From Ceratodon purpureus (Eukaryota > Streptophyta > Bryopsida > Pseudoditrichales > Ditrichaceae), in assembly GCA_014871385.1 (NCBI GenBank), contig CM026427.1:16252930-16316929 (forward strand): 64,000 nucleotides of DNA, in the 5' to 3' direction. The notes beneath the pieces are model-generated. The model had not been told where the DNA came from. It searched no databases and saw only the letters and a program-made list of their open reading frames with translations. Of this stretch, positions 4,338-41,570 are shown piece by piece (positions within the stretch are counted from its first letter, which is position 1; each line of letters opens with the position of its first letter). The translations under genes were made by a program, and so were the position numbers.

Positions 4338-6719
4338 GAATGTAAGTCTCTCAATTTTATTAAAAACGTAAACCTCTTATTCAGACTCTCAATTTTCTTT
4401 CGCTGCTGCAGTCCCCATCCTTGTCATTCCAAATACACAATACTAGTGAAACCTCTGATCTTTGCATCATTCCGAAGCCGTTCAGCTAATACTGAACAAA
4501 TAGTGTCTGAGCCACAGTAACTGCAGTCGATACACTGCTCTGTTCAAGTCATTCAAAGCAACCACCGAGACACTAGTCTTGACTTCTGGGGACCAATAGA
4601 CACATGTACCAGTTGTTCATTATAGCAACCATGGCAATTGCACTTTAGATTCTTCCGTGATATCTTTCTGAAAAACCATGCGTGACTTGCGTTATAAGCA
4701 ATGACGCCATATTCATTAAATTGGCCACTACACGTTACATTCGGTGTCATACTATTTGATAGGTGACAAAAAATATTACCTTCAGTAGGGGTCCATAATA
4801 GTGTGGATGTAGAAATTAGTAATACCTTTTAGTGTCAGTGGGGGTGCCAATATGGAATAATATGGACATATAAAAATTAAAGTGAAAAAATATTAATAGT
4901 GAATACAAGAGCAAATAGTAAAAGATACGGCACATAGTAAATTGAAAGAAAAGTAATCGTACCAAAGAAAAGCAATTAAAGTAAAGGAAAAATACTTTTA
5001 GTAAAGAAAAGGTAAATTTAGTAAATAAAAAGAAATTCTAGTAAAAGATAAAGTAAAAGAAGAGTATTTAAAGGCAAACTCAGGAGTCTACTTTAATAAA
5101 TTTGTAGGAGTAGATTAGAGGCTTGTTTATTCAAAGAGAGAAAAGACAACTGCATAGTGAACTGATAATAGTGAAGAATTAGTGCCATGTGGAAAAGTTA
5201 GTGTTAATAAACATAATAGAGTTGAATAGAATACAACAAATTCATTGGAACAAGTTGTTGTGAAAAATGATTATGATGGATGTATGAAGTAAAGACTGAA
5301 AGTGAAGGATGTGAGGTGCAAACATTTTTAATCAATGAGACGAGTGAATGATAAGTTACTACTCTCTGCAGTCTTTGTAGGGCTTTCGAACTTCAGTTCG
5401 TATTATGATTGGAACTTATCTTAAGGACTAAAGGTGCACAAGATTTGTTTGTTAACCCGTAAAAGACGAAGCAACCACTTTTGGATTGAGCTAGAAATTG
5501 AAAACCCGTAAAATGCCCTAGAAAGGTCGGATTTGAGTGTTTTTTGATCCTAACCTCTTTAGAATCAAGTTGGCAAAAAGAATATGCTAAAATTTTGGTG
5601 AAAAAGTGGAACCCTGATTTTAGAAAAAAGAAAGAACATGAGTCGGTCCTAGGTTTGTACAGTGAAGTTAGTGAAGTTGAAAATGGAAATGAAGATCTCT
5701 CTTTGTGGATTTATTTGTTTAGCATTTATTTTTTTGGAAATGCTTGTATGACCACTCTTTTATGGCTTCACCCTTTTGGATTTATCAAAAACATTTTCGA
5801 ATTTTTCAGAAAGTGTCATGTTGAAAAAAATAAAATTCAGAGTGACACTTATGTCAAATTCATTTACATCAAACCTGTTTTCTCCAAATTGGTAACTCGA
5901 AAAATCTAAAAAAAATTGTGCATGTTTATAAGATACTAGAGAAGAGAATTAGTTTTAGTTGCCAAGTTTTTATATATTTTTGAATTAACTATTTTCAGTC
6001 AAACTCGGAAACTCACTGTTAGTATTTCAGAAATTCACTGATCTTTCAAACTTCACTGAAGGTATTGAAAACCTGTGAAAATACCCCTCCGTCCTTTCGG
6101 GTATTTAGTTATATGATTACTTACAAAAAATCGGATGTTGATCATATATGTTGATCATATATTCTTCATGTTCTTGGTGGGTGCACACTTTCATTGTTGC
6201 CCTCCGATTCAAGGTATTCTTTCTTTAGGATATTATTATAAAAGTTAAACAAATCCTAGATTCTAAAAATCTGGAAATGACTTTGAAGGTGACCGTTTAG
6301 GAGTTTTGATGTCTAGACAAAAGGAAAATTATAGAAATAGTCACATAACATCCGAGGTGGATGACTATAGTATACAAATTACTGGATTATAAGAGGCCTA
6401 CTTCAAAGGTTTACTTCAATATTGTATTTATGTAAGTCCTCAAAGCATTTTGGCATAATATGATGATAGCAGTCACACGTTCAGAAACTAACTCTATATC
6501 TAGGCATTAGATAAAAGAGATCTTGTCTTCTTCTTTGCTATCTATTTACAAAAATGTAGAGAGTGTAGTTGCATCTAAGCTTTCATATATTAGGTTTAGA
6601 ATGAATATTGTAAAATTCCGATAATGTGGAGCAAAACATCATGGTAGTTTTAATATACTACACTAATTGAAAGTGTTCCTCGGATGTCAGGACTTGTGCT
6701 CTTCATAGTACTTGTCGAT
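4338..6719. other. AT-rich intergenic repeat-like DNA
   Basis: No gene is recognised. Composition drops sharply to AT-rich after about 4.76 kb, with purine-rich AGTAAA-type low-complexity runs at about 4.9-5.1 kb. An open frame at 5544-5909 (121 codons) is Lys- and Phe-rich with no family resemblance and is probably chance or transposon debris. A 33-base segment at 4704-4736 recurs in inverted orientation at 18832-18864. Confidence 0.6.
4704..4736. repeat. 33-base dispersed inverted-repeat copy (partner at 18832-18864)
   Basis: The reverse complement of this segment is identical to bases 18832-18864. The flanks on both sides resemble each other only loosely, so this looks like the best-preserved core of an older dispersed repeat. 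Confidence 0.7.
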
Positions 6720-9700
6720 GATGAATTCAAGGGCACCTGCGTTCGAACTCGATAATCTGACGTAGGTTGTCCTCAGCAAATTGAATTTGTATTGTCGAGG
6801 CAAATTGAATCCGTCCAGGCTTCTCTGGTTTCCAAGAAGCAAGAACACTATCTGTTGAAATCACGTCCTGGGTTTTCGAAGTCCAGTTTATATGGAAACA
6901 TAGGGTGCGTATTCCATCCACGGTATGCATCGTCCACTGCATTGTTTGCATTGTTCAAGACCCACCATCGTACTTTGGCAGATTTATAATTTGGCAACAA
7001 TGCATTCATTTGTGGATGCTCCATGATTTTTCCTAGCCAGATTGGATCTTCACACCCTTCTCCCGGTCTAACAAATGCAAAAAAACCCTTCCGAATATCC
7101 CTATCAACTGTAAATGGGGGAGGAGGTCTACCCTCAATTGTACCAATGTACGGCTGCTCTTCCGAATCTACATCGCCTTCTTGAAATGGAGCTTGAGGTA
7201 AAGGAATCTCTATTTGTCCTTGATACACTTGCATTGATCGGGAGTCTTGTTCTAGGCCAAAATCCAAACCGCAAAGGAATATCGCAGTGCACATCCTCAT
7301 TTGTAGTGTGATTTTCTTGTAGATCCTCAATATTTGATGCTCCTGGATGAAGGGGAACCTCATTTGTTTCCAAGGAATTGGCTCTAGCGCTCCCGACCGC
7401 ACTATCCTCGTGCTCATTTTCTCCAGGGTTACTCACTTCCGCATCCTCATTAGGAGTACTTTCAACAGGAGTGCTGCTGGCATGTAACTCTGTTGATTGA
7501 AGACCCATTGATTTGATTGCATCTTTTACACTAGTCCAATATTCCACGTAATGCAATTGTTGTGCCTTGAATGCCGGCGTAACCTCTTCTTTCAGAAATT
7601 TCTTGTAATGAGTCAAAAACCCCTCAAGGCCTCTTAATAACTCATCACTGTTCTTGAGCTTATGCGGTTTAACGGCACTTGGTTCTGCTCCATCTGAAGG
7701 AAGGATTGATTTACCTTCGTTGTCTTCTTTTCACAACTTGATATCAGGTTCGTGTATAGGTTTCCATTCTTTCTCAGTACAAGCTAACTTATATTGCATC
7801 AAAGGCCAATCATTTTCGTGCAAGAAGAATCTAAATTGGGCTTCTTTGCTATGCCCATGCAGTTTTTTCTTACCTTTTGATGCAATGTATGGAGCAATAA
7901 ACTTCTTGAAGTCCGGAACCTCTTCAATTAGATGTGGAATCATGGGACCATCTTCGTCTAGATCCAAATAGGATTTCATTAGCATCGGTAGCGTTGGATG
8001 GTCCTTTTCTTTCAAAACCATGCTCCATCTTCCAAAGGAAGCGTCGATGTCATCATGTTTATGTCCAACCATCATGAATGAGACTACCACCTCTTGGACA
8101 ATCTTCTTTGCGACCAGAAGTGACCAGAAACAAAATGCGAATCTATTTTTATTCTCCCGCCAACAATTATCAAGTTGGACATGCAACACATGAGGAAGGT
8201 CTCGGTTTGGTCTTGGAGTGTCTACCGGCTCTCCTAGTGACGGCAGACACATCTCTTTTCCGTACAACATAGCGTCATACAAGGATTGCTCGCATTTTCC
8301 TTGAAAAGAGCTCTAGTGTATGTTTTTGGGGGATCCTCTAAGTCACGTAGCAATTTCGCAATGGAACCGATTGTGAAATTGCTATCATTCGGATAAACGT
8401 CTAGAGTATAGTGGGCATACCTTGCATCAGCATGACCATGGGCATACATCCCAATCATTCATATAGGCAATTTTAAGTAGCCATCAAGGTCTTTTGTCCG
8501 GGCCCGGAGGCATGGTAGTGCTGTCTTAGAATGATCCATTTTGTCATGGAGAATAGATACAAATTCCAGTGGTCGGTTAATGGAATGAAGACGATCTGAC
8601 CAATACACATTTCGCGCTGCCCACTGAGCTTTAGTTTGCTTGTTGAATTTCAGGGCCCACTGTTTCTAAATTCTGCTCCTTCGATCCACGGGGCGCTGCA
8701 TTACGAAGAGTTGAGTACAATTCACATTTTGAGCACCGTGAGAAATAGTACCCTCTTCTTTTGATCTTGTAGTCCGCATATTTGCCCACACGTATCTTAC
8801 TTAGAAGGGCAACGGAAATAGGTTTCAAGCCAACTTGAACATTCACCTGTTCCATAATATATAAAGTAATGAGTTCCAGAAAATCATGGAATGCACAAAA
8901 TGTATAGTGGATACTTAGATGTGGAGTAGTAATATTCTACCTTGTTTATCTTAGGCAGAAATTGCTTCCATTGAATTCCTCTTGGAAGAATCTTTTGCGG
9001 AACTCGTTCTCCTGAAGGAAGTGTGCATGTATAGGGCATTTGATCAGCAAGCCCGTCAACAACTGTGCGTAAAGTTTCTGTGGCTTGTAGTGTTGATGGT
9101 CTTGGCTTTGACCTCCCAAGATTGCCATGAGGTCGAGCTTGTTCACCGTTATTAGCTTGCTTGTTGTAGCGACGAAATGTTCGGTCAGGAACACCATGGA
9201 TAAGCTTCCACCCTTTGATACAAACTTCTTTAAATTCAAGCATGACCAAATCTTCCGTTCCATCTGAGGAGCGAAATCTTGTTCGGTGGACGTCAAGGTT
9301 TTTCATGCGCCTTTCCTCTGAATTGTGTAGATACATCCTATATCGAAGCGAACGAACAGTCCCTACAGAAAATGCCCTGGTACAATGACGATGGCAACAA
9401 TCAAGCATATACAATTTAGATATCTCACCGTCACTAATCCTCCATTTCTGAGTTCTCTTCTCCTTGGATGGTCTGTTCGAGGTATCATTTGTGCGCTTTC
9501 CTTTCTGATCTACCCTTCTAAGCTCATCCTCTTGTACGGTTGCTGAGTGCCTTCGGAGATGATCATAAACACTAACATTCTTATAAAAAAGCAAGTGCAC
9601 CGGCCAACATAGACATCGGTCTCGTAAGATAGAATCGCCTTCAAATACTTCAAGAACCACAATACCAAACTGGTAATCCCCTAGGTCGTTCTCTCCATCC

Positions 9701-9950
9701 ACTGACATCAATGAATTAGTAGATGTCACGAGTGCAGTAGCAAACTTGGTTCCGTGTTCATGCCTGGCTTCCACGGTTAGTCCTTTCCAGTCTTCTCTTG
9801 TAATATCATCGCAACTAGGAATTGGTGAATTATCAATGTGTTCGTCAATTCTCTCGTCATTAGAGACGTCGAAATTCTGGTCTTTTCTGAAGTTGATTCC
9901 TGTCTTGAAATCTGAATGCGCTTCTGCATTTGATAAGAAATAAGAATGTC
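6720..9950 (-). pseudogene. Decayed transposon-type gene with DUF7869-like domain
   Basis: Read on the minus strand, open segments line up in the order of a single large protein. At 9950-8946 is an N-terminal part with a CCHRHCTRAF Cys/His motif and a basic linker. At 8853-8632 is a Cys-containing segment (SRCSKCEL) and APRGSKE. At 8630-8290 are ILHDKMDHSKTA, MYAHGHADARYAHY and NFTIGSIAKLLRDLE. At 8282-7734 are HVQLDNCWRENKNR and MMVGHKHDDIDASFGRW. At 7730-6848 is an acidic linker and a BAH-like C-terminus (FFAFVRPGEG, WLGKIM, VRWW). These blocks match the DUF7869 family, widespread in repeat-rich genomes and probably transposon-borne, perhaps with an RNase H-like core (inference). Lesions: a frame change near 8635, an in-frame TGA at about 8459-8461, a frame change near 8280, TGA at 7731-7733 where Trp is likely, and a frame change near 7250. 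An intron at about 8853-8945 is plausible. The copy is very unlikely to encode a full protein. Confidence 0.75.
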
Positions 9951-9993
9951 CGATACAGATTTACAGCTGTTGGAAAGATAACTTTATACTGAT

Positions 9994-10102
9994 AATAGAA
10001 TGGAATTGGTTGTGTCAGACAAGCATGGGATCTCTGTTTCAGTGAATGACTTCGTGATCAAGGCTGCTGCACTGGCCTTGAAGAAGGTTCCTGAAGCAAA
10101 TG
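9994..10102 (+). pseudogene. Captured exon of dihydrolipoyl acetyltransferase (PDH E2) catalytic domain
   Basis: The frame through ATG 10000 reads a segment containing KHGISVSVNDFVIKAAALAL and KKVPEAN. This matches the start of the 2-oxoacid dehydrogenase acyltransferase domain of plant mitochondrial pyruvate dehydrogenase E2. A donor-like GTAAC follows at 10103. No other E2 exon (lipoyl domain, HxxxDG active site) is found in the window, so this is an isolated exon. It is on the opposite strand from the adjoining DUF7869 gene. Presence of the exon is clear; capture by a mobile element is inference. Confidence 0.8.
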
Positions 10103-10537
10103 GTAACATTTGAGTTATCTTGATGTGTACTGCAGGGTAGTAACATGTCGATGATGAATGTGAGAATCTTGAATATTTATTCGATGAAGTTATAAATAGA
10201 TTATGTTGCTTGCATTTTACTACTATTGTTGATGTAGTAAAGTTTTATAACTAACAGTATGTTTAGCTTGGTGGTTTTTGCATCATTAATGAAAATTAAA
10301 TGGTTAAATAGACAAGATTCAAGGAACTCTTCATATCTACACTAAATTGTGATATGATACCCCCTTCAAATAGTGAACTTCACTGAAGCTGGTCGCTTTT
10401 GATCAGGTCTATCTTTCTAGGATGCATTTTTCTTGCATGAATGGTGCCTTTTTAGGCATCTGATATCATGTTCGCAAGATGAAGACCTCTGTTTGATAGC
10501 CTTGGTTTCAATTAATATTTCTCAATTGGTTTGACAG

Positions 10538-11135
10538 GTATTGGAGGTGGATTGGAGTCGATGTTTGTCAATCCAATGGCTTGGGAGGGCTTGGTTAATC
10601 AAAGGGTATCGTTTCTAATCTCTTTTTTCTTATTTTCTTGAGATTTTTATTATTTTTCTAAATTTAATTAAAGGGACTCCTCATTCATGTCTTGCACTTT
10701 ATTATGAACCCTTTTTATTCTTTCTCTATGTTCTGTCATTTTTCTTCATTTTTAATGTGTTAAGAGTTTCAGTCTGAACTAAGCTTCATGGTCTGATGTT
10801 GGTTGCGTCAGGTGGAGTCCAAACAACGAGTTTAGGATTGCCTTCTTTCTATGGGAATTACTTCTGAGAACGTCGCAAAGCGCTATGGATGCTGCAAACA
10901 ACAGGATGCTGCAATAGTATGTCACTCTACTTCATTCTAGAGTTTGTATAAAAGTTCGGCCTTCGATTGCATTGTAGAGTAACTAAGTTCCGATCCTTCA
11001 AATGAAATTAAAAGTACTGGAGCTACAGTTGATATGGTTCAATCTGTTTTTGTATAGGTGAAATCACATGCGAAAGCAGCAGCTGCTAGGGCGTCTTGCA
11101 GATTCAAAGATGTGATCATTCCTATGCACACAAAG
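10538..11135 (+). pseudogene. Captured fragment of peroxisomal 3-ketoacyl-CoA thiolase (three exons with introns)
   Basis: Three exon-like pieces match consecutive parts of plant peroxisomal thiolase. 10538-10605 reads GIGGGLESMFVNPMAWEGLV. 10812-10917 contains a match to the SMGITSENVAKRYG region. 11058-11135 contains KAAAARASCRFKDVIIP. Intron-like sequence with GT and AG ends separates them, so the source was genomic DNA and not a processed mRNA. The middle exon has an in-frame TAG (about 10833-10835) and has lost residues after AKRYG. The first, catalytic-Cys and His-rich parts of thiolase are absent. It is therefore a truncated pseudogene, lying 0.4 kb after the E2 exon and directly before a ubiquitin-like frame, all on the plus strand. 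Confidence 0.8.
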
Positions 11136-11396
11136 GTATTTTCTGGCATTTAATTTCATGACTATACATTCTCCCCAATTCGCTGTACTGTTATCATTAG
11201 AGTAGGTCTGTGCAAGGTCACAATAGCACACTGAATTGCTACTTGATATGTTGAACAATTGCAGGCAGCGAGGAGTAGGAGACTAGCCGGTTATAGAGTA
11301 GAATTGATAGCTTTGTTTGCAAGCATATTTCAGACTTTGCAGTTTGGCCATAGGCCCAAACACATAAGTAAATTCCAACCGATGCTGAAGGGTAGT

Positions 11397-11642
11397 ATGC
11401 AAATCTTTGTGAAAAAATTGACTGGCAACACCATCACCTTGGAGATTCAAAGCTTTAATACCATCGATACTGTAAAGACAAAAATTCAGTATAAAGTTGG
11501 CATTCCTCCCAACCAGCAGCGTTTGATCTTTGCTTATAAGCAATTAGAAGATGGGCATACCTTGGCTCACTACAACATTCAGAAGGAGTCTACTCTACAT
11601 ATAGTACTTCGTCTAAGAGGAGGTATTGAAATGAAGTATTAA
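11397..11642 (+). CDS. Divergent single-unit ubiquitin-like frame (76 residues ending RLRGG, plus IEMKY tail)
   Basis: ATG 11397 opens a complete ubiquitin of exactly 76 residues ending in Gly-Gly, followed by five more residues and a stop. About 15 positions differ from the almost invariant eukaryotic sequence, including K11N, D32Y, E34V, G47Y, R54H and D58H. Lys6, 27, 29, 33, 48 and 63 are kept. The frame stays open upstream to about 11259, where an AG acceptor would join it to the thiolase fragment. A true ubiquitin gene would be near-perfectly conserved, so this is probably a captured, relaxed copy or ubiquitin-like pseudogene whose frame is still intact. Expression is unknown. Confidence 0.65.
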
Positions 11643-12061
11643 TTTCATGCATAGTTAAAGCTTGTTTTGCATGGCATTTTGAAAGGTTGTATTATATGTT
11701 GTTGTAGAAGATTGAATCAATATAAGAATGTTGTTAGAGGTGTGGAAATTTGGGAGGGGGTATTTTGTAGGTTTTGGGATATCAATATCAATTTTGGTAT
11801 TCATCCACTAAAACCTACTTATACCTAGGAAGAAAACTCTATAGTTCTATTGGACTTGTAGACAAAGGAAGAAATTTCTTTTCCCTACCAATAAATTGTA
11901 AGTTTGATTCCACTTTCCATTGTTTCTATGGTCCTAAACAACACTTTTATATTAGATTTAGTCATATATTACAACATATGATACAATATTTCATTTTACA
12001 TTTAATTTTGGCAAATCTTATACTATTTACTAATTATTGTTTGGTGTTTTGATTGGAAGGT
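11643..12061. other. Short AT-rich spacer before the TET/JBP-like gene
   Basis: No gene is recognised. A frame at 11774-12052 is aromatic-rich and has no known domain. The stretch should hold the 5' UTR or promoter of the gene starting at 12062. Confidence 0.4.
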
Positions 12062-15029
12062 ATGGGTTCTAAAAGCCTAAGCCAAAGACAGAGGAAAAGA
12101 GCTAGAGAAGAAGTTGAAAAGAAGCTTGAAATTAAAGAATGCAAAGAGGAGAAGGTGAAAAGTGAAGATAAAAGGGTTAAAACTCAAGAAGAGAAGAGTA
12201 GAGATTCAAAAGTAAGTAGTTGTTTTATTACATATTTATTAGTCACTAATTATTTTTTAATCTGTCTTTTTTTCTCTTTTGATATGCCAGTCTTTTCTTT
12301 CTTGTTTCTTCTCATATTTTCTTAGTTTAGTACTGGTTTTATGAGATTGATTACGTGAATGTAGAGTGAACTGAGTATTGGTAATTCGCCTTTCGCTGTG
12401 TTGTTTCACTGCTTTCACTGCTTCCACTGTTCGTTGGTTTAGTTACTGTGCATTTAGTTACTGGTATGTGATTACACTGTTTGCTGGCTGCTTTCACTGG
12501 TATGTGATTACACTATTTGCTGCCTACTTTCGCATTGAGAGTTTTTTAAGTATTAGGGGGTTTTTTACTACTGGGGGATTTTTTACTATTTCTTTCTTGA
12601 GTCTAGGCCTGTGAGTGTTGTGTGAATTTACAATGAATTTTGTCCCTATGAGAGCTGAAAATATGAATATCTAGTAATATAGAATATGCCAAGTTACGAT
12701 AAAATATGAGAAGTGCTAATTGGAGTGTTTTTTTAATTCAAAAAATGAGTCACACTCTTTTAGCCATTGTATTAAATATAGTAGCCATTGTATCAAGTCA
12801 GAGCATAATTGTATTTGGAAATGCAAACAGTCATTATGATTGTATGTCCGCTGTACTCAGGTTATAACTCATGATTGTATGTCCACTGTGACATATTGGA
12901 TTGATTGATTTTTTTTTCCCCCAATAGAGCCTTTTCTTAATTTCCAGTCTTTGTCGATGTTTTTATTCCTAAGTTATGGTTTTTGGAGCTTCTTTCAAAG
13001 TGGAGTTTAAGTTAATGGTTTTTGTTGCTTGAGTTTGAAGGTGATAAACTTGTGTTGGAGATCCAAAAGACATGTCCTAAACTATGTTAGAATCATTTTA
13101 TTTTTATTTTACTGTTTAAATTTACTGATGAGATTCAATTTTTAAAAATTGGTTCAATAGTGGTGAATGTGTTAATTATGGACGGAAATAGACTGGTTTA
13201 GATGCTGCAAATTCCAAACAACTTACTGGTCCAGTTGATTCTGCTCCAGTTGATTCTGCTCCAGTTGATTCTGCTCCTTGCTGGGCAATGGACCATGTCA
13301 TTTGCTCGGATTTCTCATAGAGCTGTCTCTTCCATTTTCTCATTCGAATCAATTTCTTTAAATTTTTTTTAGTTTCTTACAGAGCTCTCGCTCGTTTGAA
13401 TTTTGTCGATACTTTTGTTTGAATTTTGTGGATACTGCTATTGACTCTCTGCCTCTCAGCTTTTTGTTTTGCATTACATTGTCTTTTCTGTTCACTTATG
13501 TCAGCTTTCTGTTTTGCATTACATTGTCTCTTCTGTTTCACTTATGTTTAATTCAGTTAGGTTATTGACTTGTTTGGTTATTAACTTGGTGAGAAAATAA
13601 CTAGTTATTGACTTCTTTGGTTATTGACTTGTTTGGTTATTCTGCTTGAGTTTTATTCTACTAGTTGAGTTCTATTCTGCTTGAGTTATATTGCTGATTG
13701 TAACTTTGGTTCTGTTTCACAATTTTGATTCTATTTCACAATTTTGGTTCTATTTCACAATTTTGGTTCTGTTTCACAATTTTGGTCCTGTTTTTATAGT
13801 TGAATTGTATTAATTGAATTTTATTTTTTTGGATGCAGAATGTAGGGAAAGTGAGCTTTACTTGTGGACTTTGTAGTGTGAACTTGAACTGTGTGAATCA
13901 AGTTGAAGCGCAGAACTTGGGAAAGATGCACTTGGGAGTTCTTGCCGCGAGGGGTTTTTCTCTAGTACACTCCATTCTTGCATATGTAGGTGGGAATAGT
14001 AAGGTGGAAGAAAAACCCTCACCCTTAGAAGTTTTGATGGGAGAAAAAGCAATGGTAGTAATTGATAGACTTAGTAAAGAGGGGGCTGATATTCCTACAT
14101 GTGTCAAATGTGTAGTAAAGGTTTTTAAAATTTTTAACTACAAGAAAATGTCAAAAGAATTCGATTTTGAAGAAAGTTTGATTAATTCTGTGGAATTAGT
14201 TAATTCTTGTCTTATTTTAGATGGAGAGGAAATTATAGGAATTTTAGTGTTGAATGGAATTTCAGATGATGAAGCTTCATCATTAGGAAGTAGGGCATCT
14301 CGGTTATGGGGAAGTGGAGGTTATGTTGAAAGATCCCCCGATAAACTATCTGGGTTGATGGCCATGTTTGGATGGGGCTTTGCTGCGAAACTTGGAAGGT
14401 AATTTTTTTTCCATTCAATTTGAATATTACAGTTGTTTTATTTTGAATGTGTTATTTTGATGGTCTTATTTTAATCTTTTTTATTTTATTTATTTTTTAG
14501 GTATGTACATCCACTGGTGAAGAGACAAAAAATTCCAGAAGACAAAGAGGAACAGAAGATTGCAGATGGTTTTGAGCTAGAGGTTGCAGCAGACGGTTTT
14601 GTTAAGGATCTCTCCAAGCATCTACAGAAGTATTTTCCAAATACTTACAGAAGCCTATGTGACTTATACAAGAATCCCACTGGACTTGGTAGGATGGCTG
14701 ATAGTCCATTTTCAGGTATGGGAATTACTGAAAACTTTGCTAGTTTGCCACATCTTGACAAAGATTATGGATTTGATTTTATTAGTTGGTTTCTTAGCAA
14801 AAACCAGTATAGAGGTACTGGTTTGTGTGCAGGTGGAGAATTCTTAATGCCAGAGTATGGGATGTTCTTACAACCAAGGCATGGCACAATTTTTTGTTTC
14901 AAAGCTACTATTGTTTATCATGGAACAAGGAGGAATATTGGATATACACAAGTTGGTGCTTGTGTATATACCAAAATGAAGATAGTTAATGGAGCCAATA
15001 AGAGAAGCAAAGATATAGATTTAGAGTAA
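12062..15029 (+). CDS. TET/JBP-like 2OG-Fe(II) oxygenase (exons 12062-12211, 13839-14398, 14501-15029)
   Basis: The three exons join in frame (phase 0, then AG|G) to 412 residues. Residues 1-50 are a Lys/Glu/Arg-rich basic, probably coiled segment. Residues about 51-150 contain two CxxC pairs (C59/C62 and C138/C141), possibly metal binding. The C-terminal half has the double-stranded beta-helix signature: FGWGFAAKLG, then ASLPHLDKDY with the HxD iron ligands H321 and D323, then GGEFLMPEYGM, then a distal YHGTRR with H377 as third ligand and Arg 3-4 residues on. Spacing and the GGEF-LP-YG block resemble the TET/JBP oxygenases that accompany DNA transposons in fungi. Those proteins oxidise 5-methylcytosine or thymine in DNA. 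No stop or frameshift is seen. The 1.6 kb first intron has tandem repeats. Exact substrate is inference; an uncharacterised 2OG oxygenase is the fallback. Confidence 0.75.
13231..13277. repeat. 15-bp tandem repeat, three units
   Basis: Three consecutive perfect copies of a 15-base unit lie in the long first intron of the TET/JBP-like gene. Confidence 0.9.
13708..13788. repeat. 20-bp tandem repeat, about four units
   Basis: About four near-identical 20-base units containing a TTTCACAATTTTG core lie just upstream of the exon 2 acceptor. A longer imperfect duplication of about 45 bases lies nearby at about 13457-13547. Confidence 0.85.
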
Positions 15030-17157
15030 AATAATAGCTGTAGTAGTTGATATGGTACTTTATATTTTTATATCTTTATATTTTTATATCTATATATTTT
15101 ACTATGTTATTTGTGAATCATCTTTAATATTATGTTTTTATTGGTTTTTTGTGATTGTTTAGTAATTTATGATTTCAATCAGTATAATGGAGAGAATATG
15201 ATTTGATATTCAAAGGAAGTTGGAAACTTTTGGAGGCTTCTTTCATTGGTTTAGATGGTTAGTACTGAGTATCATCCCTCCATTATGTCTACATTGACCA
15301 AATAACATACTACCTAGCAATAACTATCTACAAGTATTTACTTCTCACCCCTAAGTTACCGCTGTGATCTCATGCTTGTCTGTAAAGCTACTTTGGTGGT
15401 TTAGTTTCATTGTCTCTCTATGATGAATGGTTTCTTGATTAGTAGTTTTGAATTGATTAATAGGTTTGAATTTAAGTTGGATTGTCTCTTTGCCTGTTTG
15501 TTCTCTTATTAGCTCACAGTCAATATTTGTGATATTTGTGATATTGCAATATTTGTGAGGTACTCGTTTGTTCTGAGAATATCTCAATATGAAGACAGGC
15601 CAGAGGTGCTTGAAGAAAATGTTGGCTGCATTGTAGAAGTAAGTGTATTAGGGATGTTTTCACTTGTCTAGTATTTTATTCTTTATTCCCACATTCATCA
15701 AAACAATATTAATTACGGAAGTATTGAAGTTTAATTGTGACTAAAGGTTCCTGCATTGGAAAACTATGCTTTACTCTAACCGGGCAAGGGATGTGGCTAC
15801 TGCAGAGTGGAGCAGAGTGTATATGGACTGTTGAGAACAAGGGACATGGCTATGGCTCGCTTCAAGGAATATAACATCCCCGTCCAAATGGTAGAAATCA
15901 TGTTTTCAATTAACCATTTTTGCTAGGGTGCGTGTATTCGCCCAAGAGTGTACCACTGCTGGTTATAAAATTCCTTTTGAATAAACTTTCGACTTTCTCG
16001 CTGAAAAAAGTTTGAGTGTACGACAATAGAATAGAACCAAACCTTGTTTCAAAATTTCAACTAACTAATCGAGACAACTGCGACCTTTTAAAATTTGTAT
16101 GCGAATCACCTGGATAAGCTTGTCCACTAGATTATGTACAGTACACTAGATTGATCATGCATGAAACTAAAACAATTGTTTGGTAACCAGCACATCTGAC
16201 AATCGATTGATATGTACATCCCAGAAATAGTGATGCTCTCTACAGTACTTATCCTTCCCAAGTCCAATGATCTTTCTGGAATGATCAAGCTAAATCGGGC
16301 AACATGCATCTCTCAAATTCTCAATCCCTGAACCTGAAGACCTTCACAAAAACTGCTAGTTTAAATGAGCTGGAATCTGATCCCATGAAGGAGAACCACA
16401 CCAGTCTCTGATGCACATTCAATTAGACTAGCTACAATGTAAATGACCATTACAAAGAAGACTAAATTACAACTGAGATAAGAGCGATATTTGCAACATA
16501 TTGAACTTATTTGATCAAGATCACTACTTGAAGCTAACACCTTTTCAAGAACCTAAAGCACTTCAAGTCTTAAGAAAGATGTCCGACCGTAAGGTCACGA
16601 CCCTCACAAAGCTCGTAAATTCACTGAGCTCGTGCGACCAAAAAAATATTTATAAAAAAAAAGAACTCTCACCACTGTCATGAGCTGCTCTGATCGATCG
16701 AGTGGCGTACTACTTCATTAGGTCCTGATATTCAAATGCCTCACTTAAAATAAAACTGATGTGGAAAAGCATACTAATTATGAAAACGTTTGAGTGCATT
16801 TTTGGAAAGTTGGAAACTACTACTTTACTACATGATGAATGGATTCAACCTCTTTGAGACTCATTCTGTGAAACATTTAAACTTATTCACATGAATCATT
16901 TTATTCAAATCACCAAAGAACAAAAAATTTGAATTTCTATCTTATACAAGATTTAATAGAGAATTAAATAATCCCTAATCAAAAAATAAACATTATAATC
17001 AATTTTTTCAAATTGGAAGATTATACTTTTAAAACTTTTATTTAAGTGGGAATTGAGATTTAATTTTCAAAAAATCAAATAAGTGCTGGAAATTTATAAT
17101 TAAAAGAGAAAAATATAATATAGAACTTGTGTAAAAATCCATAAAAAGGTTAGTGGA

Positions 17158-17217
17158 GATGGTGGGTAGGGTAGGGCAGGGTAGGGTGGGTTAGGGTCGG
17201 GGTAGGTGGAGAGGGGC
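17158..17217 (+). repeat. G-rich GGGTAGG-type tract
   Basis: Repeated GGGTAGGG and GGGTTAGGG-like words form a strongly G-biased strand with many runs of three or more G. This is degenerate and short compared with a true interstitial plant telomere repeat (TTTAGGG). It could form a G-quadruplex. Confidence 0.7.
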
Positions 17218-17450
17218 CCATGGGTGAACGAAATCCGGCACTAGCACCACAGTGGCTGCCACGACAACTTCGCATTACATGGTTCCCCTTTCACATCTTG
17301 GGAACACCCATTTCTCACTTATATTCAAGGCTCTCCTAGGAGACCCATTCGATATGGGATATGGGCTTGCACCTATTCAAAAACCTGAATGCTTTGCCAA
17401 TGTCCTCTCTTTGTTTTCGACAAAGCTATTGAAGGTAGGAATTGAGGATG

Positions 17451-17574
17451 GAGGCGGGGCTGAATTTTTTTATGCTTAGTGGTTGTGGATGTGTTGTATG
17501 CTGAGTGAGGGTGAGGCGGGGCTGAATTTTTTTATGCTTAGTGGTTGTGGATGTGTTGTATGTTGAGTGAGGGT
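17451..17574. repeat. 62-bp direct duplication
   Basis: Two adjacent, nearly identical copies of a 62-base unit start at 17451 and 17513, each beginning GAGGCGGGGCTG. Few differences suggest a recent duplication. Confidence 0.9.
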
Positions 17575-18831
17575 TGTTGCATTGCATGGCCGAGGGGTTT
17601 GGAAATTCGAGCGATGGGAGAGTTGTGGGGGTGCTGGATGGATGGGGGAGTGAGCTTGCTGGAGCTTGGAGTCATATTCTTTATCTTTACAAACATTTCT
17701 TTATCTTTACATGAGTCAAATTCTTTATATTTACAAATATTTCTTTATCTTTACATGAGTCAAATTCTTTATCTTTACAAACATTTCTTTATATCCCATT
17801 ATTGTCAAAGATGCTAAATTCTTCTTTAACACCTTTTCTTTTACCTTCAATGAAATTTATTTCCAATATTATTTTTTATTTCTCTTTAACCCCTAAAGGA
17901 CAATCTGCCACATTTGGGCTTTTTTGGAATTTGGGCAGGTACCTATGAATGCAATATATATCAGGATTTTTTGAAATTTTTATTGAAGGTGGGCCGTTCG
18001 GAGATCTTCGTGTGGGTATTTTTATTTTTCAATTCCGACATCAGGATCAAAAGTTATGAAGGTTTAAGTGTCAAATGCTGCTCGTTGGGCAGCTACTGAA
18101 TTGTTCTAAGCCACTATGAATGCAGCAAATTTTGCCCAAAACTGCCCAAAACTGCCAAAATCTGCCCAAAGACTAAACTTTGAAATTCCACCAAAAATTG
18201 AGATTTTGATATTTTTCAAAAATAAAAATTTCTATGTATAGAGAAGGCAGTAGAGCATGTTTCTGCCGTTAGGATTTTCAATCCAAAATGTTTTCATATG
18301 TTATTTTTATTGTCCAAAAACGGCCTTTGTTTGTGAATTTCAGTATACCCCATAGCGGAAAATGATTTTTTTGGCAACTTTCCACAACTTTTTTGAATAT
18401 AATTTTCTTAGAACAATTAGCTAACTCAGTCTTCTTTGACGTGCATCAAAACCACCAAAATCCATAATGCAAAAAAATGGTTTTTTGGGCCTTCGAAGCT
18501 CTGCTGTCCCCTTTTTTTGCAGGGAAAAAAACTTGTTTTTCTACTTTGAATGTTATGATCTTGCAATTGGTGATGAATGAGTGTGTGAGATTTGGTGGAT
18601 ATGTAGATATAGAAGTTAGCTACAAGATCTTACGGTTAGATGTTCTAAAAAAGACCCCAAGTTTGCAAAATCCACCTTGCTTTGAAGAGGGGCTGTTTTG
18701 AGGCAGTTTTGATGAAAAATACCCTCAGAACTTTAGGGGTTAATCCCTCCATAATCTACTCACCATTGCATTATACCACCGTACGTGTTTTTTAATTTTC
18801 AGGAACTCACACTATTTCAAGTGGCCAATAT

Positions 18832-18864
18832 AACGTGTAGTGGCCAATTTAATGAATATGGCGT
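18832..18864. repeat. 33-base dispersed inverted-repeat copy (partner at 4704-4736)
   Basis: This segment is identical to the reverse complement of 4704-4736. It sits in a gene-free AT-rich stretch. Confidence 0.7.
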
Positions 18865-23488: not shown

Positions 23489-24874
23489 TCAACCTCTTCT
23501 ACAATACCCACATCGTTTGCAGAAGCCATGACGTTGTTTAGAGCTGAGTGAAAGGCGATACTTACCTTTGCTTTGTTTCAGGCCCAGACATGGCCCTCCG
23601 TAGCTCGTCTGCCACTCTGCACCCACTCGTCGTAGTTGCCAGAACCCCACTGCCAAAGTCTCCAAGCTGGTATTCACTCGCAATTCCTTGCACATCATCA
23701 TCCTCAGCTTCTCTTCTGTCCCAAACTCTACCTGCCTTCGATTGATCCACTTCTCCTTGTCCGTGTACCCACAATCCCTTCCCCACTCATGCGTCAACAG
23801 CACATGCTTCAAGGTAGTGTTCAGTTCGAGCATGGAGGCCAGATGCCTCAAAATCACAACCAGACCATGAGTGGCGAAGTCCTGTTCCCGCCTCTCATCG
23901 AAATAGTGTGAGAGAAACAGATTGAGTGTAGAGACAGTGGTGTTCGGTTGACGACCAGACCGATCCGGGACGAATGGAGCGAGAAGCTCTCCCAGTCCGA
24001 CACGGTCGCAGAAACAGCCGAACTCCTTCAAAGTATGGTTAACCTCGAGCGCTCTGCCAATCTCTGTACACATTCCCTCTTCTAAACATGTCTTAAAATC
24101 CGAGAAACGAAGCTCCAGCTTCTCTAGAGTTGTGTTGCAGCGCACCAGATTCGCTAAGGCGTCCTCGCAGCGCTCATCGGGGTCAGCAAAATCTAGTAAA
24201 TGCAGCACCAGCTCCTTAAGACCCACATTGGCTTCGCTCGGTGAAGCAGTGGTTAACGGCGTCACCAGAATCTCCAGAGTCTCTCGGTCTAGTTTGAAGT
24301 CACCTGAAGCAAGTTGGATTGTAACCGATCTCAAAACAGAGTTCCGCGATAGATAGAGAGCGATACTCTTAGCAAGGACTCGGCTGTTCGTCGTACCCAG
24401 CGCCCAAGGATACACTATCACCGATCTCAAACGACGAAAATATGACGGCAATATATGCCGAGGACTTCTGAAATCGAAACTGGAGAGACTAGGACTGGTT
24501 TTGAGAAGAGAAAAGATTTCAAATATAAGATCCTCAAACCGTCGCACGAAATCCTCTCGGCGGAGAAGCCAAGCATCAGAAAAACGTAATTGCGCGTGCG
24601 TCCATGTGGGACAAGCGACTAATGTTCGAACGGCTTCCAAGAGATCTCCTGGTGCGATGCGAAAGATAGGACTCTTGTCTGAATCTAGACACTCCGACTC
24701 GACTGCTCGGCTGCGTCTCCTTGTCAACACGAGGTTGAATATATGCGAGCTTGCATAGTTATTGGTAAGGCTCATCTCCGAGGAGTAAAAGACTGGCTCC
24801 GAGTTGTAGTTACTGTTCACAAAAGCACTCAGACCTCGAAGAGACGCTGCTTCGGGCTCCCCGACCGCTTCCAT
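23489..24874 (-). CDS. Single-exon LRR-like protein, distant copy of the 38-46 kb family
   Basis: The frame gives 461 residues from the ATG at 24874, which aligns with the start of its relatives (an ATG seven codons upstream is possible). It shows irregular leucine-rich units of the form NTTLEKLELRFS, NHTLKEFGCF and NTTLKHVLL, and shares the blocks LLEAVRTLVACPT, FSLLKTSPSLSSF, PSEANVGLKELVL and GRQPNTTVSTL. It ends in the family's Cys-rich tail (GFCKRCGYCRRG). There is no signal peptide or TM segment. The repeats resemble the RNI-type LRRs of NLR and related proteins, but no NB-ARC, TIR or kinase domain is present. Function is unknown. Divergence and opposite orientation suggest an older duplication than the tandem array. 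Confidence 0.75.
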   Translation of the reverse strand: MEAVGEPEAASLRGLSAFVNSNYNSEPVFYSSEMSLTNNYASSHIFNLVLTRRRSRAVESECLDSDKSPIFRIAPGDLLEAVRTLVACPTWTHAQLRFSDAWLLRREDFVRRFEDLIFEIFSLLKTSPSLSSFDFRSPRHILPSYFRRLRSVIVYPWALGTTNSRVLAKSIALYLSRNSVLRSVTIQLASGDFKLDRETLEILVTPLTTASPSEANVGLKELVLHLLDFADPDERCEDALANLVRCNTTLEKLELRFSDFKTCLEEGMCTEIGRALEVNHTLKEFGCFCDRVGLGELLAPFVPDRSGRQPNTTVSTLNLFLSHYFDERREQDFATHGLVVILRHLASMLELNTTLKHVLLTHEWGRDCGYTDKEKWINRRQVEFGTEEKLRMMMCKELRVNTSLETLAVGFWQLRRVGAEWQTSYGGPCLGLKQSKGKYRLSLSSKQRHGFCKRCGYCRRG

Positions 24875-25196
24875 GTTTGAATCCCCTCGGAACACAGAAA
24901 CCCAGTTCCAGTGGTTTGTTGCCCACCGTGGCGATCCAATCGCTCATACCCAAGACAACAGCTCACGGCGAGCAAGAGCCGTAACGATGGATCATTGAAG
25001 CCCAGGTATGCACGCTTGAGCTTCACTGCCAAAGGAACAGTGGGTACTGTACCGACATGGATGGTCACAGGCGACAATCAAAGGTGGGTAGATTTGAAAC
25101 TAGGCAAGAAGTTGCAGACATAAGTTATGTGATTAAACCACGAGTGGAGCAATAGACCAGTTTGGAAGAGTGAAGATCGCAAACTTGGAAAGAGAA
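24875..25196. other. Spacer between the LRR-like gene and U6
   Basis: Holds the upstream region of the minus-strand LRR-like gene and the downstream side of U6. No other feature is seen. Confidence 0.4.
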
Positions 25197-25247
25197 AAAA
25201 ATTTGGACCATTTCTCGATTTGTGCGTGTCATCCTTGCGCAGGGGCC

Positions 25248-25279
<32 letters not shown>

Positions 25280-25299
25280 TCAGATGTCTCCGAAGAGAC
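25197..25299 (-). ncRNA. U6: U6 spliceosomal snRNA
   Basis: On the minus strand the sequence is a near-complete plant U6: a 5' stem-loop with a CUUCGG-type loop, GATAAAATTGGAACGATACA, the invariant ACAGAG box, AGATTAGCATGG with the AGC triad, the CCCCTGCGCAAGGATGACACGC internal stem-loop region, and a final GGTCCAAA followed by seven T (Pol III terminator). The 5' stem differs from the usual plant form by a paired C-G to U-A change, which keeps the helix. A TATA-like GATATA lies about 16-20 bases upstream, closer than the usual -30. I see no clear TCCCACATCG-type upstream element. So the RNA looks functional but the promoter is doubtful. Confidence 0.93.
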
Positions 25300-37066: not shown

Positions 37067-38210
37067 ACTTGTCGATGCAGCGTGTGTTTGCGACGAATGC
37101 AAAGTCCGTCATTGGTTTCGTACTCATTGCATGTTGCAGCCTCGAACAGTGGTTAGGTTGAAGTGATTACATCCACTGGTGTATGGTTGGATCCATTGTT
37201 GTTACAAAATGTATTTTCCAATAAATATTGTAAAAAAATTGCTGTTCATCCGTTCCTACTTTTTTGCCGATTGAGTCAGATGTATAATATGCTGCGATGT
37301 AGAATTGTATTCTTAACACTCCACTTCGACATATTGTGTAGTCATGATCACATTTTTACATTTACACAATGCAGTACAAAGTCTTCACTAATCGAAGACA
37401 ATGCTTTGAAGATTTCTTAACCATACGTGCACTAATGCTAGGAATCACGCCTTTCGTACTGCCCGGCCCTCAGACCAGAATAAACGCTCTAGAATCTACA
37501 TAGTACATAGGTAACACCACATAAAAATAAGCGAATCTCTGGTTATTTCTGTCTCCAAGCCGCTAGATATCGAAAAGTCTACAATTCATCTCAAATATAA
37601 GTTGCTCCGTCGCAGTCGATTGATCATATCCACAACGAGCAACCGACAATGCGAGCAAGTTAACTTTGCCACGACGTATACACTGTACAGCTCTCCACTG
37701 TCTGTCGAATCCGTTCATTGTGACCTATTCGCAGAATGGGATTTTCACAATCAGGAGTTAGGATGTGCCTCTCCGTTGCAAGATGCCAACTTGCGGTATG
37801 ACTTTGCACCAGTGACGTCTCATTTGATACCATAATTAGCAGGAACAAGATGGTGGCGACGCAACGCAGGGCTTGCAAGTTGCAGGACTCTTTCACCCAC
37901 ATGAAGTGACCAACTTATTCCATCATGCCTCTTGATCATCTGAGTCCAATCTGCCAATTCACTCGTGATTTCGTCACATGTCTGCTTCTAATTCCTACGG
38001 CTTGCTTCCGAGGTTTTCGCTTTGGTGCCACCAGTGGTCGTCGGTAAACAGAGCTCCGGCGCAGTCAACAGTGAACACCCTAACGCCAATGATCTATGGT
38101 GCCTTGCTCGCCGTGGGTTGCTAGCTTAGGTGCTTGCGATTTGCTCTTGATGTAGGGTTGCTGCCGGTAGCTGCTGTATCAGGGTGTGGGAGTCCTGGAG
38201 GGATTCGACG
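37067..38210. repeat. 5' flank of tandem unit 1 (LRR-like array)
   Basis: After the RNase B 3' region, sequence from about 37610 to the LRR-like start codon is repeated upstream of the second and third copies (from about 40990 and 43540). Shared words include TTCACAATCA at about 37745, 41113 and 43625, and GGTTGCTAGCTTAGGTGCTTG upstream of copies 1 and 2. This defines the left border of the repeated unit. Confidence 0.75.
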
Positions 38211-39668
38211 ATGGACCGTGCTCTGGAGGAGTCTGACGCAAGGGGTCTTCGAGATCTTGAAGCTTTTGTCAACGTCAGTGAGCACAACTCGGTGCCATGC
38301 TTTTACTCCTGTACGATTCATACTCACCACACCCCAGCAACCTCGCGCGAATCGCTCCGTTTCCATGTCTCGTTGGCAAGGAGAGACAGTCTAGCAATCG
38401 AGTCGGATTGTCACAACTTGGACAAGAATCGTGCCAGCTATTCAGGTGTAGGAGCAGTAAATCTCTTGGAAGCCATTCGAATACTAGTCGCTTGTCCCAC
38501 ATTGACATACACGCAATATGTTGATTCACGTCTTTGGGCTTCCTCGTCAAAGAAATTCGACGTGCCACATAGGTTTAATGAGGATCTCATGTCTGAGGTC
38601 TTCTCTCTTCTGAAGTCGAGTCCTAGTCTCTCATGGTTTCATTTCTTTAACTCCGTAGGCTCAGATGTAAGCCTATATTGCAAGCATTTGCAGACGCTAG
38701 TCTGTGAGAATCCTCGTCTGGAAACGTTGACCGTGGTGAGTACAAGTGGTCCGAATCTCGTGGTCCTTGCAAAGGCCTTAGCTGTCTGCCTATCGCGGAA
38801 CACTGTTTTGAACTCGTTTACGCTTAAAAATTTAGCAGATAATTACGAGTTGAGCCGAGAATCTCTGGAGATTCTGTTGAGTCCATTTACGAGTAGTTCA
38901 CCCAGCGAAGCTAATGCAGATCTTAAAGAGCTGGCGCTGTATTCAGGATATGATCCATCGAAGTACTCCGACGTGGACGTGGACGTCATGGCGAATTTGG
39001 TATGCCGCAACACAACCCTAAAGAAGCTAGACCTTCATTTCTCGAAGTTTAGGTCATGTTTGAAGGACGGCAAGTCGTCATGGAGAGAGTTCTGCAGAGC
39101 GCTCGAGGTGAATCAGACTCTGGAGGAGTTGAGCTGTCCCTGCGAAGTTGCAGCAATGAGAGAGCTTCTTGTTCCGTTCGTTCTAGATCGCTATGGTCGT
39201 CAACCGAATACCACCCTCTCTACACTACGCCTATCTGTCTCAATTGAAGGCCATTGCCGACGGGTAGAGGTACTTGTGAATAATTTCGTCATCGTTTTGA
39301 GGGATCTCGCCTCCGCATTGCAACGAAACACTACCTTGAAGCACGTGCAATTTATTTTCCAGCGTAATATGTATGGGGATTACAAAAGGTATGACACGAA
39401 GTATTCCACCTACAAGGTTTTATGCCAGGCAGAACCTCAGATTCAAGAGATCCTGAGGATGATGATAGACAATGAGCTGAGAGTGAACACCAGCTTGGAG
39501 TCTCTTGAAGTGGGACACTGGTCTCTACTACGAGTGGGTACAGAGTGGCAGACGAGCTACCGAGGGCCATGCCTGAGAAAGGCCAAAGGTGAGCAGTGTC
39601 AGCTGATCTATAAAATGCAATCAAATCATGGCTTCTGCAGACGATGTTGGTCATGGAGTAGAGGTTGA
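38211..39668 (+). CDS. LRR-like protein, tandem copy 1
   Basis: A single exon of 485 residues starting MDRALEESDARGLRDLEAFV. Leucine-rich units repeat with an NTTL or NQTL core (NTTLKKLDLHFS, NQTLEELSCP, NTTLKHVQF, NTSLESLEV), spaced irregularly. The conserved blocks SPSEANADLKELAL and GRQPNTTLSTLRL are present, and the tail is GFCRRCWSWSRG. No signal peptide, TM helix, kinase or nucleotide-binding motif is seen. Function is unknown; RNI-type LRRs usually bind proteins. It is head-to-tail with two close paralogues, and the flanks are duplicated too. The start is set by alignment with the other copies. Confidence 0.75.
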   Translation: MDRALEESDARGLRDLEAFVNVSEHNSVPCFYSCTIHTHHTPATSRESLRFHVSLARRDSLAIESDCHNLDKNRASYSGVGAVNLLEAIRILVACPTLTYTQYVDSRLWASSSKKFDVPHRFNEDLMSEVFSLLKSSPSLSWFHFFNSVGSDVSLYCKHLQTLVCENPRLETLTVVSTSGPNLVVLAKALAVCLSRNTVLNSFTLKNLADNYELSRESLEILLSPFTSSSPSEANADLKELALYSGYDPSKYSDVDVDVMANLVCRNTTLKKLDLHFSKFRSCLKDGKSSWREFCRALEVNQTLEELSCPCEVAAMRELLVPFVLDRYGRQPNTTLSTLRLSVSIEGHCRRVEVLVNNFVIVLRDLASALQRNTTLKHVQFIFQRNMYGDYKRYDTKYSTYKVLCQAEPQIQEILRMMIDNELRVNTSLESLEVGHWSLLRVGTEWQTSYRGPCLRKAKGEQCQLIYKMQSNHGFCRRCWSWSRG

Positions 39669-41570
39669 ATTGTAGCACTTGAATGGATACTGACATTGCA
39701 GAGTTACCTGTCTTGCAGAGTATTATGTGAAAGTGAAGGTGACCCCGTGAACGGTATGCAGCACAGCGCTCGGTTTTGGAGGCTAGCTCCAGTTTGGTAT
39801 TCAGGCATCACAGATTCTCGATGAAACAAACACTGGAGCAGGTGGATATGTTCCGGCCTCCCAGTTGTTGAGGCTTTGAGGTTCGTTTTGCAGATAACTG
39901 CTCATCATTCTTTTTAGGATTGGTTAGAGGGATGGATTGCTTGTCTCACTCACCTCGAGAACCAAAGTATGTGGTGCAGGAGGTAACGTACACTGGAACC
40001 AGCACTTATATACAGGCTCCAGGGGTACCTGTATTTGCACCGCGCCTTGGTCATTGGCAGCTGCTCGTCCCAGTTTGATTTGACTTCTCACTACGTTTCA
40101 TAGCATCGCAAGATTTGTCCGGTCCGCTTTGAGTGGCGATACCTTCTCTGAGTAAGCCTTGTTCTTAGAATATAGTTGCTGTTAGCAGAGAAGTAGTTAC
40201 AGCATCAGTTCAATTGCTCTAGGCACATCCTTGCTAATAATTACAGTTTTGTTTCGAAGTATGTATCGAGCATCGTCTCATTGAACGTTGCAGCCTTGAG
40301 GTGGACTAGTGGTTAGCTTGAAGTGCATATTTCCGCAGCCTGCTGGATGGTGGGAAATGTTGTTATCATGTGCATTTCTCAAAGTAAATCATAGAAATTT
40401 GGTGCTTATGTGTAGGCTGAATTCAGAGCTCTTGTGGTATGATTGAAATGTAACACATGCATGCTGTGACGTTGAGTTGTTTTCATTGCACTCTAGTTTG
40501 ATATATAGCATTTTGGTCATGTTGTTTGTGCATATATGATGGTGGATGTTTGATTCTATGCATGTTCTCCACGAATCACTGACTATGTTTCGCGGACTTG
40601 TGAATCACTTCTGAAGTGCCCCGGTGCTCGAATTCACTCTCTCGACATCTCACATATTCTTCGTCAAGTATGTGAGCTCATCTCTCGACATCTCACATAC
40701 TCCTCCGCATTCACCATCCGCCATCAGCAAACTCTGCATTACTCTATAATCCTCTTCCGAGATTTGATCAAGAGCTTTCCAAACCATGCCTGGAGACCTG
40801 CCATTTCACTAATATGGGGTCATTGTCTTATCAGACCTGTCGAGACAATTGAAAAGTTTCGTGCAGCTTCGGATTTGTTGGGATTATTTTTGAAAGTTGA
40901 GTGTAATTATACTCCGGTGGAGCTTATTTCTGGCCCCACGCCACTAGATATCCAATAAGTCAACAATCCCTCTCAATATACTCTGACGCAATCGACTGAT
41001 CATATCCACAACGAGCAACCGACAACTTAGCGAACAAGTTAACTTTGCCACGACGTGTACAGCTCTCCCCTGTCTGTCGAATCCGTCCATTGTGATCTAT
41101 TCGCAGAATGGGATTTTCACAATTAATCAGGATGTGCCTCTCCGTTGCAAGATGCCAACATGCGGTATGTCTTTGCATCGATCACGTCTCATTCGATACC
41201 ATTAGCAGCAGGAACAAGCCATGGACATCATCCAAGACGGTGGCCACGCAACGCAGGACTTGCAGGGCTCATTCACCCACATGATGAAGTGACCAACTGA
41301 TTCCATTATGCCTCTTGATCGTCTGAGTCCAATCTGCGAATTCACTCGTGATTTCGTCACATGTCTGCTTCTTGCTGCGACTTGCTTCCCAGGTTTTTGC
41401 TTCGGTGCCACCAGTGGTCGGCGGTAAACGAAGCTCCGCAGTCAACACCCTAACGCCGATGATCCATGGTGCCTTGCTCGCCGTGGGTTGCTAGCTTAGG
41501 TGCTTGCGATTTGCTCTCAACGTTGGGCTGCTGCCGGTAGCTGGTGTAAGAGTCCAGGAGGGATTCGAAG
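39669..41570. other. Spacer between LRR-like copies 1 and 2
   Basis: The first part is the 3' region of copy 1. From about 40990 the sequence is the duplicated 5' flank of the unit. The middle (about 39.8-40.9 kb) has no counterpart recognised between copies 2 and 3 and no gene. Confidence 0.55.

Follow-up and report, generated by a model that had tools for sequence, protein, structure and literature searches.

A 64,000-nucleotide stretch of the Ceratodon purpureus genome (contig CM026427.1), referred to below as the window, contains a DNA transposon of about 14 kb that encloses a three-exon gene, and the 412-residue product of this gene almost certainly belongs to TET/JBP, a superfamily of oxygenases that use Fe(II) to act on DNA bases, as judged from its sequence. 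Among enzymes of solved structure, its predicted closest relative is CMD1 of Chlamydomonas, which modifies 5-methylcytosine (5mC). The protein is a predicted oxygenase and a candidate only, with the residues of the iron-binding triad present and two pocket residues altered. We tentatively favor a reading to which we give a little less than an even chance, namely that the gene would be cargo of a transposon bounded by terminal inverted repeats (TIRs) and carrying a DUF7869-class transposase, and that its product would act on the methylated DNA of the element.

An intact three-exon gene for a TET/JBP-like protein

A first-pass annotation of this DNA had described three exons that join in frame into a 412-residue protein free of lesions. 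Re-reading the exons bore this out. The spliced frame of 1239 nt has no internal stop when the three joined exons are translated, and both introns (1627 and 102 nt, with T fractions of 0.45 and 0.62) have GT-AG borders. The motifs that had been reported were all located at the expected residues: the HxD motif is formed by H321 and D323, the GGEF of GGEFLMPEYGM starts at residue 348, the distal H377 is followed by Arg (R380/R381), and two CxxC pairs start at residues 59 and 138. From base composition alone, the chance of 411 open codons is ∼6e-16. The presumed transposase gene of the same element shows 3 to 4 lesions in ∼2.8 kb of coding sequence (a hand count, or 1 to 1.4 lesions/kb), and at this rate of decay, 1.24 kb would stay unbroken by chance in ∼18 to 27% of cases. 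Thus, the intactness of the frame is by itself weak evidence for selection.

The proposed TET/JBP-like identity was upheld by a hidden Markov model search. Tet_JBP (PF12851) was the top Pfam match of the whole protein (E 5.5e-5, 22.9 bits), and exon 3 alone matched it at E 8.7e-6 (25.5 bits). The sole other Pfam match at E up to 10 was the Tet-like 2OG-FeII_Oxy_6 (PF20515, E 0.038). When the whole protein was compared with the PDB by phmmer, CMD1 was the only credible match (E 3.5e-8), over an alignment of only 87 residues (295 to 381), with one chance match at 6.9; the domain alone matched CMD1 at E 1.6e-8, with chance matches at 0.94 and 3. No prolyl hydroxylase and no AlkB protein was found in Pfam or the PDB at E up to 10, in agreement with the view that no other 2-oxoglutarate (2OG)-dependent oxygenase family fits better. 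NCBIfam gave no match for the protein, and PHROGs gave two weak ones without function (E 0.0015 and 0.27).

Relatives were reached only through 6 weakly matching phage records (E 0.4 to 0.9), from which searches gave 18 loci, 1 locus, and the best 80 of 187. From the 99 proteins bearing the motif, 23 non-redundant phage and bacterial proteins were used as alignment rows. All 24 sequences (exon 3 and the 23 relatives) matched Tet_JBP at E up to 0.01. The profile built from them gave seven PDB matches at E up to 10, six of which were TET-family proteins: CMD1 (0.0022), Naegleria Tet (two, 0.0041 and 0.005), and human TET2 (three, 0.013). The remaining match was unrelated (0.36). As this profile contains 23 phage and bacterial rows, it mainly shows the TET-likeness of the family as a whole. 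Of the 50 positions that are invariant in the 23 relatives, 17 are retained in the plant protein, whereas 2000 shuffles retained 2.4 on average and never more than 8. With hhalign, the 23-row profile aligned to exon 3 at E 2e-5 (probability 77%) versus 0.3 (0.2%) for an unrelated open reading frame (ORF) of the window. No confirmed relative was found in viral contigs scanned with the whole protein, the CMD1 stretch, or both aligned, and a plasmid DNA search with exon 3 returned no match. AlphaFold models were of low confidence, both for exon 2, read-through intron 2, and exon 3 with 5 phage relatives (predicted local distance difference test score [pLDDT] of 41) and for exon 3 alone with the 23 relatives (pLDDT of 45).

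In the phmmer alignment, H321, D323, and H377 correspond to the iron triad H345, D347, and H397 of CMD1 (numbering as given in PMC7854593). In addition to these ligands, the protein retains GGEF, W333, HG, and the VY strand. Asp329 lies on CMD1 Thr354, which is the position of Asp337 in CcTet, the Coprinopsis cinerea enzyme (alignment and PMC11040006). In that paper, Asp337 is described as making up for an absent contact to N4 of the base.

A TIR-bounded element with captured gene pieces

The gene had been placed in a transposon island, a description that we can sharpen. Two 38-nt TIRs lie 14,085 nt apart and enclose both the TET/JBP-like gene and a DUF7869 exon. The element has the termini ACGCC...GGCGT and a G+C fraction of 0.363, versus 0.494 (left) and 0.451 (right) outside it, and the TIRs lie near the borders of this low-GC island, sharply at the left and within ∼0.7 kb at the right. 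No convincing target-site duplication was seen at the element flanks at 2-, 4-, or 6-bp readings; the flanks ...GCAATG and TGAATG... have only AATG in common, two bases out of step on one side. Longer TIRs of ∼280 bp were considered and rejected. Their alignment scored 119 versus 93 in shuffles, but the outer and inner parts were no better than controls made of window pieces under three scorings: without the 38-bp core, the outer part was reached by 28 to 108 of 296 to 299 control pieces and the inner part by 71 to 139 of 293 to 294. Two 62-bp tandem copies (98%) are present in the right arm at 17451-17574.

DUF7869 (PF25273) was matched at E 1.3e-36 by positions 7734-8312. Pfam only names this domain, and we take the gene to be a transposase gene. 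In the PDB, its upstream exon, 8887-9960, weakly matched ubiquitin carboxyl-terminal hydrolase 1 (E 0.012 and 0.034), perhaps by chance.

Between the DUF7869 gene and the TET/JBP-like gene, the plus strand carries, in this order, pieces of a pyruvate dehydrogenase E2 gene and of a thiolase gene and a ubiquitin frame (Table 1). The three joined thiolase pieces matched 2c7y, 2wu9, and 2wua by phmmer at 1.1e-19 to 5.1e-19, followed by the next match at 1.7e-8, and two of the pieces matched Thiolase_N in Pfam (E 0.0012 and 0.084). The three PDB entries are presumably plant thiolases. The ubiquitin frame is open, with 18 of the 74 compared residues changed, which is unusual since ubiquitin hardly varies. 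The E2 and thiolase pieces (9982-11150) lie on one strand with apparent splice sites and could form a chimeric transcript.

The TET coding sequence had an observed/expected CpG ratio of 0.21, compared with 0.42 for the captured pieces, 0.71 for the transposase locus, and 0.74 to 0.87 for the flanks. According to this difference, the TET gene seems to have a history other than that of the transposase gene. CpG loss by deamination was considered as the cause of the low CpG but was not supported, as TG/CA was not above flank levels.

Table 1. Coordinates of the transposon and of the features that it contains (positions in the window)
Feature	Position	Strand	Evidence
DNA transposon, 14.16 kb, TIR-bounded	4704..18864	.	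TIRs, GC and CpG
Left TIR, 38 nt, ACGCCATATTCATTAAATTGGCCACTACACGTTACATT	4704..4741	+	97% complementary to right arm
DUF7869-class gene (presumed transposase), several exons, apparently broken	6848..9960	-	Pfam PF25273 and three-frame reading
Pyruvate dehydrogenase E2 acyltransferase exon fragment, captured	9982..10110	+	Pfam 2-oxoacid_dh E 6.3e-5; PDB E 5.4e-5
Peroxisomal 3-ketoacyl-CoA thiolase fragments, captured, stop at 10833-10835	10516..11150	+	phmmer, Pfam
Complete 76-codon ubiquitin frame ending LRLRGG, then 5 more codons	11397..11624	+	Sequence
TET/JBP-like gene, exon 1 (basic N-terminus)	12062..12211	+	Sequence, GT donor
TET/JBP-like gene, exon 2 (CxxC pairs, N-terminal portion of the domain)	13839..14398	+	AG acceptor, GT donor
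TET/JBP-like gene, exon 3 (H321xD323, GGEFLMPEYGM, H377, stop)	14501..15029	+	Translation, Pfam, PDB, relatives profile
Right TIR, 38 nt	18827..18864	-	Inverted-repeat match to left arm

Possible role of the gene and alternative explanations

If the gene is working cargo, as we tentatively propose, methylated DNA of the element itself would be bound by the basic N-terminal part of the protein and by its TET fold. The pocket, in which H321, D323, and H377 would hold Fe(II), would receive a flipped base and oxidize or otherwise modify it. Maintenance methylation or silencing readers would no longer recognize the modified base, so that the element could then be expressed and move. That the gene is expressed, that its product is active, what it acts on, and that the element profits are all inferred, the anti-silencing role being modeled on the one proposed for fungal TET-carrying transposons (PMC12730594).

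Several findings weigh against this proposal. The Pfam scores of the whole protein and of exon 3 are under the Tet_JBP gathering cutoff of 34.9 bits, as is likewise the score of gp2 of Mycobacterium phage KayaCho (23.7 bits, E 3.2e-5). We uphold the TET/JBP membership despite this score, given that the similarity to TET proteins of solved structure is independent of it. By alignment, Tyr326 lies on CMD1 Asp350, the position that contacts N4 of 5mC. The equivalents of this residue are given as Asn1387 in TET2, Asp234 in NgTet1, and Gly331 in CcTet in PMC11040006. The Arg that binds 2OG (R1896 in TET2, YR in the phage proteins) is replaced by Thr386 or Gln387, again by alignment. With these substitutions, the enzyme may use another co-substrate or another base, or it may be impaired. 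Furthermore, a three-frame reading of the DUF7869 gene, made without an aligned homologue, indicated that the frame shifts twice or more and is interrupted by one stop between ∼8680 and 8312, and this copy of the element appears unable to encode an intact transposase of its own. The earlier proposal of a mobile or domesticated DNA-base oxygenase in a plant stands as regards the TET/JBP family and the location inside a TIR transposon, but the mobile part is weakened by the apparently broken transposase of this copy. Finally, the neighboring cargo is captured host-gene debris, so the TET gene too could be a passenger.

Indeed, the main rival explanation is that a TET/JBP-like gene from the plant's own chromosomes was taken up whole and does nothing for the transposon, which we consider a real possibility, albeit a minority one. 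In that case, the host gene would be the point of interest. Three other host-type gene pieces are found directly upstream on the same strand, the thiolase piece is closest to enzymes that we take to be from plants, and the TET gene has introns of its own, as expected of a captured gene. However, the TET gene is complete, with a start, three exons, and a stop, whereas the thiolase and E2 pieces are fragments and only the short ubiquitin is otherwise of normal length. Moreover, its CpG ratio, far lower than that of the flanks and lower than that of the captured pieces, suggests that it has resided in the element for longer or came from elsewhere. A different explanation, which we judge unlikely, is that the protein is a decaying or catalytically altered remnant that has kept its fold and iron triad but, having lost the residues contacting the base and 2OG, no longer acts on DNA. 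The tyrosine found in place of Asp350/Asn1387 and the glutamine or threonine found in place of Arg are consistent with such a remnant, as are the transposase that looks broken in the same element and the appreciable chance that a frame of this length survives unbroken. In contrast, the complete set of iron ligands argues against it, together with the retained GGEF, W333, HG, and VY strand, as does Asp329 at the position of the compensating Asp337 of CcTet (PMC11040006).

The protein could also be an oxygenase of the same fold with a substrate other than 5mC, such as RNA, thymine, or N6-methyladenine (6mA). This option, which strikes us as improbable, draws on the residue that chooses 5mC in known enzymes, which is Tyr here, and on the variety of substrates in the family, where thymine is the substrate of JBP and CcTet accepts 6mA as well (PMC12730594 and PMC11040006). 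Yet the nearest solved relative, CMD1, is a 5mC enzyme. In addition, plant transposons are heavily 5mC-methylated, which makes 5mC the obvious target. Contamination or an assembly artifact, by which a gene from an alga, a fungus, or a phage was joined to plant DNA, seems very improbable to us. The GC and CpG contents do differ from those of the flanks, but the low-GC island has matching TIRs close to each of its borders, the introns are T-rich, and the island is flanked by BURP and formiminotransferase matches on one side and on the other by matches to RNase T2 and to ABC and UAA transporters. It also contains thiolase pieces of presumably plant type, and the collection of plant genes by the element argues for residence in plants rather than for an assembly artifact.

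Returning to the cargo reading, a bolder form of it would have a land-plant transposon lineage possess a functional CMD1-like enzyme whose base and co-substrate pocket is altered. With ascorbate or 2OG, this enzyme would place an unusual modification on cytosines (possibly 5-glyceryl-methylcytosine or a new base) in the methylated DNA of the element, which would thereby evade silencing. Ascorbate is abundant in plants. We see this version as a long shot.

If this bolder version is true, a mobile element would have brought a land plant a means of modifying DNA based on TET/JBP. TET enzymes, which chemically alter methylated DNA, are not generally credited to plants. The existence of plant TET enzymes and the reality of plant 5-hydroxymethylcytosine are presented as an open dispute in PMC6949463. 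With an intact relative of CMD1 encoded in a plant chromosome, this question becomes testable in one gene, and the view that TET genes serve transposons as anti-silencing cargo would be extended from fungi to plants. Whether the gene is cargo or a captured host gene, either one would be news for plants. No TET/JBP gene in a plant transposon was found among the matches listed in the open-licence literature.

Other features of the window

The flanks of the element hold plant-type genes. To its left, we found matches to BURP, a plant family, and to a formiminotransferase domain; to its right, matches to RNase T2, to pieces of an ABC transporter with an ABC2 membrane domain, and to a UAA transporter. 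A copy of the U6 small nuclear RNA lies at 25197-25299. A plant upstream element of the TCCCACA type is absent from the 131 bases before it, and this copy may be a pseudogene.

Three tandem intronless ORFs (505, 394, and 486 residues) with ends that are 80 to 93% alike occupy 38151-45559, and a related inverted copy is found at 23489-24943. The tandem ORFs matched no Pfam family, apart from one weak match to CxC3 (E 0.014). Lastly, 60250-61560 has inverted CAGTCAAACCTCGATAAGTG-like ends and broken reading frames, and it resembles what we take to be a pogo/Tigger-type element.

Comparison with known systems

CMD1 of Chlamydomonas reinhardtii is a vitamin C-dependent TET homologue that transfers a glyceryl group to 5mC (PDB 7cy4-7cy8). 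It has in common with the protein described here the motifs TEN, HLDxD, WF, AGGEFxxP, QP, TI, and HGTR and the HxD...H triad. The two differ at Asp350 and Thr354 of CMD1, which are Tyr326 and Asp329 here. Past H377, where we extended the comparison by hand beyond the printed alignment, CMD1 Arg410 is probably Gln387 (or Thr386), Phe416 is probably Tyr393, and Arg418 is probably Lys395. CcTet, an AG-type enzyme active on 5mC and 6mA, likewise lacks the Asn or Asp that contacts N4 and has Asp at the second position (Asp337; Asp329 here), and it acts on 5mC despite the missing residue, as described in PMC11040006. In contrast, the first position is a Gly in CcTet, opening room for 6mA, and a bulky Tyr here. 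CcTet was not among our PDB matches at E up to 10.

The phage Tet_JBP proteins, KayaCho gp2 and its relatives, share the 17 of 50 invariant positions with the plant protein at 20 to 25% identity. They keep an Arg after the Tyr of the C-terminal strand (YR), whereas the plant protein has T/Q. The products of KayaCho gene 2 (L001:810-1766) and its relatives are named either queuine tRNA-ribosyltransferase or hypothetical protein, and the former label looks wrong.

Pack-MULEs and similar elements are gene-capturing plant transposons. Like them, the element described here carries several host-gene pieces on one strand, but it has a DUF7869 transposase rather than a MuDR one, and it contains a whole TET gene. 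No open-licence paper in our literature search names DUF7869.

A precedent comes from fungi, in which TET genes are carried by Dileera, Kyakuja, Zisupton, hAT7, IS3EU, PHISTA, EnSpm, ESTA, Plavaka, and Helitron transposons, with seven lineages of PU-type, two of AG-type, and five of PE-type TET according to PMC12730594. Escape from methylation silencing has been proposed for these elements (Kojima 2025, PMC12730594), and the plant passages of the same paper report no plant TET. IS3EU was rejected as the identity of our element, since the termini ACGCC...GGCGT differ from the TAYGG...CCRTA of IS3EU. The protein is also not a PE-type fungal transposon TET, because H321-L-D323 forms HxD and the PE type has HxE, as defined in PMC12730594. 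As in the fungal cases, a TET/JBP gene and a presumed transposase gene are found in one DNA transposon, and some of the fungal elements carry extra genes too (an alpha-kinase in IS3EU, from the same source). Further differences are the plant host and the DUF7869 transposase.

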